This document shows positions 60,404 to 61,676 of a DNA stretch of 64,000 nucleotides, in pieces (positions within the stretch are counted from its first letter, which is position 1; every line of letters begins with the position of its first letter). Made by a program: the position numbers and the translations under genes. The notes beneath the pieces were generated by a model. It made no database searches. It was given only the letters and a program-made list of their open reading frames with translations, and had not been told where the DNA came from. Source of the stretch: Carbonactinospora thermoautotrophica (GTDB taxonomy: Bacteria > Actinomycetota > Actinomycetes > Streptomycetales > Carbonactinosporaceae); the NCBI RefSeq assembly GCF_001543895.1, contig NZ_JYIJ01000016.1, positions 310,001 to 374,000 on the forward strand. Direction: 5' to 3'.

Positions 60404-60619
60404 TCAGTCGATCTGCGCGATCGCGAGGGCGCGGCGGGCGCGCAGCGCGGCCAGTTCGGCACGGCGACGGGCACGCCGGGCGCGCAGCGCCGCCAACTCG
60501 GCACGGCGACGGGCGCGGCGGGCTGAGCTGATGCGGGACACGAGACGGTCGCGCTCGGCCTCGCGCAACCGTTCCTCGTACATCTGGGCTCGTGCGAGCG
60601 CTTCGGGCAACAGGTACAT
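60404..60619 (-). CDS. Small basic repeat-containing protein downstream of whiB7
   Basis: A 71-aa protein: MYLLPEALARAQMYEERLR followed by an Arg/Ala-rich coiled-coil-like stretch. A 14-aa unit (core RRRAELAALRA) is repeated twice in tandem, also visible as a 42-bp direct repeat in DNA. It likely forms one long charged helix. ATG 60619 has TAGGA about 9 nt upstream. It sits 104 bp after whiB7 on the same strand with its own terminator. No family is recognised. Confidence 0.65.
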   Translation of the reverse strand: MYLLPEALARAQMYEERLREAERDRLVSRISSARRARRRAELAALRARRARRRAELAALRARRALAIAQID

Positions 60620-60723
60620 CGTGCGGTTCCTAGTGGTGGTAGTGAAGGTCATGGGCTGTTGGCGGACGGTTACGGTGTGCTGCTGGTCCGCGACGCGGCG
60701 GCGGACTCCGATGCGGGAGGTGG

Positions 60724-60999
60724 TCACGCGGCGACCTCCGTCTTGCGCGGGCGGCCACGCGGTCGCTTCCGCGGCACGATCACGCCCTGGATGAACAGTT
60801 CTCCACCCCAGACGCCCCACGGCTCGCGCCGTTCCAGAGCGCCGACGAGACATGCCAGCCGTGCCGGGCACTCGAGGCACAGCGACTTGGCGAACTCGAC
60901 GTCAGCCGGGGACTCGGCGAAGAACAGCTCGGGGTCGTACGACCGGCACGGAAGCTGTTCGCCGTAGCGCTCGACCAAGTCAAGAGCGCTGGCCGGCAT
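60724..60999 (-). CDS. whiB7: WhiB7/WblC antibiotic-response regulator
   Basis: A 91-aa Wbl protein. The Fe-S ligands are in QLPCRSYDP and SLCLECPARLACLVG, followed by the WGVWGGELF turn. The C-terminal RKRPRGRPRK is an AT-hook, unique to WhiB7, which reads AT-rich DNA next to the -35 of its targets. It activates intrinsic antibiotic resistance genes together with the primary sigma factor. ATG 60999 has a near-perfect AAGGAGGTGA 5 nt upstream. Neighbours (ABC1 kinase, uvrD2) match the mycobacterial locus. The presumed autoregulatory promoter is over 600 bp upstream. Confidence 0.96.
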   Translation of the reverse strand: MPASALDLVERYGEQLPCRSYDPELFFAESPADVEFAKSLCLECPARLACLVGALERREPWGVWGGELFIQGVIVPRKRPRGRPRKTEVAA

Positions 61000-61063
61000 G
61001 GTGTCACCTCCTTGTGATGCTCGCAGGCTCGGTTCTCCGCCCGGGTCGACCCGAGATACACGA

Positions 61064-61096
61064 AGGCCGCGGATCCCGGGTCGGGTTCCGCGGCCT
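61064..61096 (-). terminator. Attenuator/terminator hairpin in the whiB7 leader
   Basis: Perfect 10-bp arms AGGCCGCGGA (61064-61073) and TCCGCGGCCT (61087-61096) lie between the 135-aa gene and whiB7. A second palindrome CGGGTCGACCCG (61042-61053) follows nearer whiB7. whiB7 genes in other actinobacteria are controlled by leader attenuation, so this may be the switch hairpin; it could also simply end the upstream gene. Confidence 0.6.
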
Positions 61097-61119
61097 AGAG
61101 GTGCCGGTCGGATGCGATG

Positions 61120-61527
61120 TCAGACCGGCGGACTCCAGCTTTGGAAACCCGGACGACCGTTGAAGACGGTGGCGTTGTTGAAGTTGTTGACAATGACCGC
61201 AAATTCGGTTGAAAGCGACTTCCCGGTCGGTCGCAGGCTGCGGCGCGGGGCCGTCGTGGACACACGGGTCCCCGGGTTCTGGGTCCGTTCGGGCGCCTGG
61301 ACAGGCCACCCCCCCACGAACGCGACCTGCTGCGCTGCCGTGCCGCCGGCCGGAATCGTCGTCACCATGCCAGTCAGCACCGACAGGCGCTGGGGCTGGA
61401 GGAGACCCATCCCGGGCGACTCATAGCCGGACACGCCGTTCGGCGTGCGCAGCGGCAGGCCGTGAACCGGGAGCGTGGCGTGGAGGGCGACCGGACGCGC
61501 GTCAACCCACATGAGCTCGCTGATCAC
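61120..61527 (-). CDS. Hypothetical 135-aa protein between the whiB7 promoter and whiB7
   Basis: A 135-aa protein with strong host-like GC third positions. It begins VISELMWVDARPVALHA, has LSVLTGMVTTIPAGGTAAQQV and AFVGGWPVQAPERTQNPGTR, and ends LSTEFAVIVNNFNNATVFNG. It contains no cysteine and no membrane helix; the Asn/Phe/Val composition at the end suggests beta structure. I do not recognise the family. GTG 61527 has GGGAGGTGA 6 nt upstream. It lies inside what would be the whiB7 leader transcript, followed by the hairpins before whiB7. Confidence 0.68.
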   Translation of the reverse strand: MISELMWVDARPVALHATLPVHGLPLRTPNGVSGYESPGMGLLQPQRLSVLTGMVTTIPAGGTAAQQVAFVGGWPVQAPERTQNPGTRVSTTAPRRSLRPTGKSLSTEFAVIVNNFNNATVFNGRPGFQSWSPPV

Positions 61528-61607
61528 CGGTCGTCACCTCCCTCGCCGAGGCCTGGGTCTGGAACGGAAGCAGTGCATGACCGTGTACGGCACCGGTCGT
61601 CGATCAT
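61524..61607 (-). CDS. Candidate 27-aa upstream ORF in the whiB7 leader
   Basis: A 27-aa frame starting MIDDRCRTRSC on the minus strand, beginning inside an 18-bp perfect palindrome (61598-61615). Its stop overlaps the GTG start of the 135-aa gene (GTGA). There is no good ribosome binding site before it. whiB7 leaders typically hold a short regulatory ORF, so this is a candidate leader peptide, but the evidence is only positional. Confidence 0.3.
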   Translation of the reverse strand: MIDDRCRTRSCTASVPDPGLGEGGDDR

Positions 61608-61637
61608 GATCGACGCCGGCCGTACCCCGGTGCTGGC

Positions 61638-61676
61638 AGGTTAGAGCCGACGAGGATGGGGGCGCAATTTATTTTT
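61638..61676 (-). promoter_or_regulatory. WhiB7-type autoregulatory promoter
   Basis: On the minus strand an AT-rich run AAAAATAAATT (rc of 61666-61676) abuts -35 TTGCGC (rc of 61662-61667), then 18 bp, then -10 TAACCT (rc of 61638-61643). AT-rich sequence right before the -35 is the hallmark of WhiB7-dependent promoters. Arms GTACGGC/GCCGTAC (61585-61591, 61619-61625) form a large hairpin just downstream. Confidence 0.65.

Follow-up and report, generated by a model that had tools for sequence, protein, structure and literature searches.

The leader of whiB7, also named wblC, is a known regulatory system, said to be covered by Burian and Thompson in 2018. As described in several reports (PMC10727445, PMC11550727, PMC4128351, PMC13236596), its attenuation mechanism has been published, and the arrangement of the leader reading frame has already been described across the bacterial class considered here. 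The WblC motif GAAAWY lies 3 nt upstream of the -35 element (PMC7157823), and a long 5' UTR of wblC that may contain a small ORF has been noted (PMC4921905). In mycobacteria, whiB7 has an upstream open reading frame (uORF) and transcription starts about 350 nt upstream of the gene (PMC4128351), while the uORF of M. abscessus is MAB_3509c, annotated as a hypothetical protein (PMC10727445). Regarding Streptomyces, the uORF attenuator of Lee, Lee & Roe 2022, as cited in PMC11550727 and PMC10727445, consists in these citing accounts of a WhiB7-type promoter, a translated uORF, a Rho-independent terminator and an antiterminator formed by the overlap of uORF and terminator. A ribosome-mediated switch between terminator and antiterminator is also found in the attenuators of vmlR, lmrC, msrD, are5sc and tiaA, which use leader peptides of few codons (MLV, MRS, and MVGDDDISG for are5sc and tiaA) (PMC12421871).

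The window analysed here is a stretch of 64,000 nt from Carbonactinospora thermoautotrophica, and its minus strand carries, in order, a UvrD2-like helicase with an HRDC domain (63884-61803), a promoter, a 135-codon ORF (61527-61120), a GC hairpin, whiB7 and a small basic ORF (Table 1). Given the published whiB7/wblC leaders, this leader is, as read from its sequence, a lineage-specific instance of the known attenuator, with the four elements reported from Streptomyces. The Streptomyces leaders recovered in the present comparison share this anatomy but differ from the window in uORF length (about 90-120 codons compared to 135), in the uORF C-terminus (PWSDPA instead of SWSPPV) and in the register of the outer antiterminator helix, UUCCGYGG, where the window and Embleya/Yinghuangia have a CGGGUU-type. 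The mycobacterial leader follows the same logic, and its uORF was likewise called a hypothetical protein, but it is shorter than that of the window. The vmlR, lmrC, msrD, are5sc and tiaA attenuators differ from the window not only by their very short peptides but also by lacking an autoregulated WhiB7 promoter. The original prediction of a long whiB7 leader with a WhiB7-type promoter, which is of the autoregulated kind, and with attenuation is supported by anatomy, conservation, covariation and the folding order in silico.

Table 1. Features of the whiB7 leader and gene, in coordinates of the window
Feature	Position	Strand	Basis
AT-rich WhiB7 (WblC) box AAAAATAAA, abutting the -35 element upstream	61668-61676	-	sequence; conserved in 109 order-mates
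Promoter: -35 TTGCGC (61662-61667), 18-nt spacer, -10 TAACCT (61638-61643)	61638-61667	-	sequence; order-mates
5'-terminal leader hairpin	61585-61625	-	folding; architecture recurs, sequence does not
Shine-Dalgarno sequence GGAGGT, preceding the GTG start of the long uORF by 8 nt	61536-61541	-	sequence; order-mates
whiB7 uORF (the "unknown 135-aa gene"), 135 codons + stop, C-terminus FNGRPGFQSWSPPV	61120-61527	-	positional counterparts; class-wide C-terminal motif
Antiterminator outer helix, 5' strand CGGGTTTCC, in uORF codons	61143-61151	-	pairs with 61082-61089
Antiterminator inner helix, 5' strand CTGGAG, in uORF codons	61133-61138	-	pairs with 61095-61100
Stop-codon hairpin GCCGGTC-TGA...-GACCGGC	61103-61129	-	folding; compensatory changes across lineages
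Antiterminator inner helix, 3' strand CTCTAG, overlapping the terminator base	61095-61100	-	pairs with 61133-61138
Rho-independent terminator/attenuator GGCCGCGGA-N13-TCCGCGGCC-TTCGTGT	61058-61095	-	near-identical in order; folding energies
whiB7 (wblC), 91 aa	60724-60999	-	WhiB domain Pfam PF02467, E=2e-14; RGRPRK AT-hook; neighbour uvrD2-like helicase

The genome of the window is the sole member of its family in the collection, and its nearest relatives there are Streptomyces-like and Catenulispora-like members of the same order. For the comparison within Streptomycetales, 110 loci were used, made up of the window, a first set of 29 and another 80 named loci drawn from the species collection of GTDB (Kitasatospora, Yinghuangia, Embleya, Streptacidiphilus, Actinacidiphila, Catenulispora and Streptomyces), of which at least three Catenulispora loci duplicate species of the first set. 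At class level, another 60 whiB7 loci, representing about 40 families, were searched mechanically for promoter, Shine-Dalgarno-led uORF and terminator. An orthologue of whiB7, with 71-80% identity, was found in 59/59 order-mates searched, and in the window the uORF-bearing leader lies directly 5' of this gene with its WhiB domain and AT-hook. Downstream of whiB7, the small basic ORF (MYLLPEALARAQMYEERLREAERDRL..., 60404-60655, minus strand) has counterparts at the same place (MQLMPEALARAHM...RRAERASLRARRALAMAVMQ) in most relatives checked, being likely a genuine co-transcribed small protein. A tandem 42-nt duplication (60427-60510, 88% identical) lies within it, giving it 14 extra residues compared to relatives (RARRRAELAALRAR repeat).

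The promoter had been proposed from AT-rich DNA, a TTGCGC, an 18-nt spacer and a TAACCT, with a leader of about 630 nt, and it was confirmed at 61638-61676 (minus strand), with conservation in the 109 order-mates; transcription is predicted to start at about 61631 (minus strand), resulting in a predicted leader of that length. All 110 Streptomycetales loci, including the window, have a WhiB7-type promoter with the AT-rich box just before the -35 element, seen in order-mates as AAAAATAGTTTGCGC...TAGCCT and variants. In the 109 order-mates, approximately 0.7-1.0 kb separate it from the aligned coding region of whiB7 further downstream (674-834 nt in the first 29 loci), and its recurrence at similar distances in 109/109 is far beyond chance. 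A search of the window leader downstream of 61638-61676 for a sigma-70-type promoter nearer whiB7 found none, as the earlier reading had also seen no closer one. The large hairpin proposed between promoter and ORF is present as well. In 73% of the order-level loci (n=110), the first 60 nt of the leader also fold strongly (z<-1.5), with no conservation of the sequence.

Concerning the reading frames of the leader, a short uORF of 27 codons and a separate full protein gene of 135 aa had been proposed. The long GTG frame itself is real and well coded, with a GC content by codon position of 0.65/0.55/0.83 and a strong Shine-Dalgarno sequence, and it is presumably translated; it begins 110 nt past the -10 element and its stop lies 25 nt before the terminator stem. 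What did not stand is its status as a separate gene, since a Shine-Dalgarno-led uORF occupies this place in 110/110 order loci (88-163 codons, median 118.5), starting 98-225 nt past the -10 element with GTG in 83 and ATG in 27 (n=110). In 109/110, these uORFs stop 27-36 nt short of a near-identical terminator, measured to its CCGCGG core; for one locus (L041), the automatic ORF choice was replaced by a candidate ending in PWRERT. Moreover, promoter, Shine-Dalgarno-led uORF and terminator occur together in 48/60 class-wide loci, where the uORFs have 42-172 codons and many end in RTWSPPV, RAWSPPV, RSWSPPV or NWSPPV, as the one of the window ends in QSWSPPV. On these sequences, the window has the widespread uORF end, and the PWSDPA of Streptomyces is derived-looking. 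The position of the order-mate uORFs, the common stop-to-terminator spacing, the class-wide (W)SPPV and the antiterminator in the last codons indicate that the 135-codon frame is the sensing uORF, and it is almost certainly whiB7's own leader uORF with no extra gene inserted. The uORF length has an approximately four-fold spread across the class, over a drifting peptide (e.g., L013, L023, L038, L080 and L084).

Two hairpins had been reported just before whiB7, of which one was retained. The GC stem at 61065-61095, formed by GGCCGCGGA and TCCGCGGCC with a U-rich tail extending to 61058 (minus strand), is predicted to be a Rho-independent terminator and is near-identical in 109/110 Streptomycetales loci and in most class-wide loci, where the usual form is (A)GGCCGCGGAACCC-loop-GGGATCCGCGGCC(T). 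A generic terminator scan of the window leader did not flag it, due to its weak U-tract. Weak U-tracts are common in actinobacteria. The second hairpin, at about 61038-61053, is no more stable than shuffled sequences (z = +0.89), which leaves a single attenuator hairpin instead of two.

Pairing is possible between the final uORF codons and the 5' side of the terminator, resulting in an antiterminator that is mutually exclusive with the terminator in silico. The outer helix joins CGGGTTTCC to GGAACCCG, located inside the 5' arm and loop of the terminator, and the inner helix changes in a compensatory manner across lineages (CCTGGAG:CTCCAGG, CTTGGAG:CTCCAAG, CCTCGAGG:CCTCGAGG, GCCTTTGAG:CTCAAAGGC, GCCTCGGGG:CCCCGAGGC and CCTCAGGTCC:GGACTTGAGG), with a mean of 6.6 Watson-Crick pairs compared to 5.0 for shuffled 5' segments. 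As seen in silico, the core of the terminator 5' arm is paired to uORF sequence further upstream in 108/109 loci before the 3' arm emerges, and masking the footprint of a ribosome at the stop codon leads to the terminator in 109/109. The folding of alternative leader hairpins, suggested as a check, gave the same order in the window: in a transcript ending at 61082, both antiterminator helices and the stop hairpin are formed, and the terminator displaces the antiterminator once its 3' arm has emerged. At equilibrium, the full segment favours the terminator in 103/109 loci, which requires a kinetic switch, as other attenuators use. When the C-terminal codons were randomly replaced by synonymous ones, the antiterminator was not significantly destabilised in most lineages (z of -1.6 in the window and -2.9 in Embleya/Yinghuangia); this test being weak, the support for the antiterminator comes from covariation and position and not from energy. 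When uORF ends were swapped between lineages, the energies were not clearly lineage-specific, except in Catenulispora.

A covariance model built on the uORF end and the terminator recovered the window copy with E = 1e-20. In 13/13 order-level genomes and most of 40 class genomes, it gave a single strong match, located at whiB7. Six weaker secondary matches were inspected and lie at gene ends, without a whiB7-like leader. No Rfam 15 model matched this region of the window at E<=1, and none reached its gathering score in 14 related leaders.

Regarding the peptide, the dN/dS of the middle of the uORF is about 0.74 compared to 0.067 for whiB7, and the last 16 codons have a pS of 0.076 compared to 0.189 in mid-ORF, values that are descriptive only because the 472 pairs of close uORFs are not independent. 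These last codons are slow at non-synonymous sites too, and elsewhere the uORF peptide is weakly constrained. The comparison of the interval in relatives confirmed the position and layout of the frame, but the peptide is without a credible sequence relative. The 135-aa product had no relative in Pfam, NCBIfam or PDB, nor among the order relatives, and four weak matches among 394 other class genomes contain internal stops and were rejected as noise. The structure prediction that had been suggested was run without an alignment and gave no fold (mean pLDDT 36), being uninformative and of little weight.

With these data, the proposal that the 135-aa ORF encodes a separate protein, co-induced with whiB7 or sensing the drug, while the 27-codon frame attenuates, is very unlikely. 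Its open frame has good codon bias and a Shine-Dalgarno sequence, and a mid-ORF dN/dS below 1 could reflect slight constraint on a protein; however, that same value, near 0.74, together with the lack of a predicted fold, makes a co-induced functional protein unlikely, and the database and genome searches speak against it as well. In addition, the 27-codon frame (61607-61524, minus strand) has no Shine-Dalgarno sequence and an overlapping ATG uORF exists in just 6/110 loci, whereas the long ORF stops at a fixed distance from the terminator and contributes its last codons to the antiterminator; this speaks against a short uORF plus a separate gene within the leader. Even less probable is that the promoter drives the 135-aa ORF alone and whiB7 has its own promoter 3' of the terminator, as no promoter-like site lies downstream and a single WhiB7-type promoter was found 5' of whiB7 in all order-mates.

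Somewhat less remote, though still improbable, is a long frame that acts as the sensor and also encodes a functional or arrest peptide, whose nascent (W)SPPV-stop would stall ribosomes or sense drugs. The C-terminal residues recur across the class, and Pro-Pro by the stop could slow ribosomes, as poly-proline is known to stall them. However, all these codons sit in RNA helices with co-varying partners, their synonymous sites are frozen as well, and DPA, ERT or SGPPG replace SPPV in other lineages while the helix is kept.

It is therefore very likely that the locus is a standard whiB7/wblC leader, in which translation of the uORF decides between terminator and antiterminator. The sigma-A polymerase, aided by WhiB7, would start at about 61631 and transcribe the 135-codon uORF. 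When the uORF is fully translated, the ribosome at the stop codon would occlude the stop hairpin and the C-terminal codons, the emerging transcript would fold into the terminator at 61065-61095, and no WhiB7 would be made. Meanwhile, ribosome-targeting drugs or a lack of amino acids would slow or halt ribosomes within the long uORF, then the exposed last codons would pair first with the 5' arm of the terminator, allowing the polymerase to read through and WhiB7 to amplify its own promoter. Probably the peptide is dispensable for this switch, what matters being translation and the RNA sequence of the last codons.

Beyond what the citing accounts of the Streptomyces attenuator describe, the comparison adds covariation across the class and the finding that uORF length varies widely while the peptide drifts. 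It also prevents the annotation of such a regulatory frame as a new protein linked to resistance, which has happened with MAB_3509c in M. abscessus. In the class-wide picture, each genome has a single leader RNA of this kind with a covarying antiterminator, and all the strong matches checked lie at whiB7. The reason for the great length of the uORF is now a testable question. As a tentative and rather doubtful suggestion, the uORF may be kept long by selection even with a peptide nearly free to change, the length setting the number of required elongation steps. If so, the leader would be a tunable integrator of translation speed, with a length matched to the drug exposure of each lineage, in contrast to the stall-site sensing of short leader peptides.
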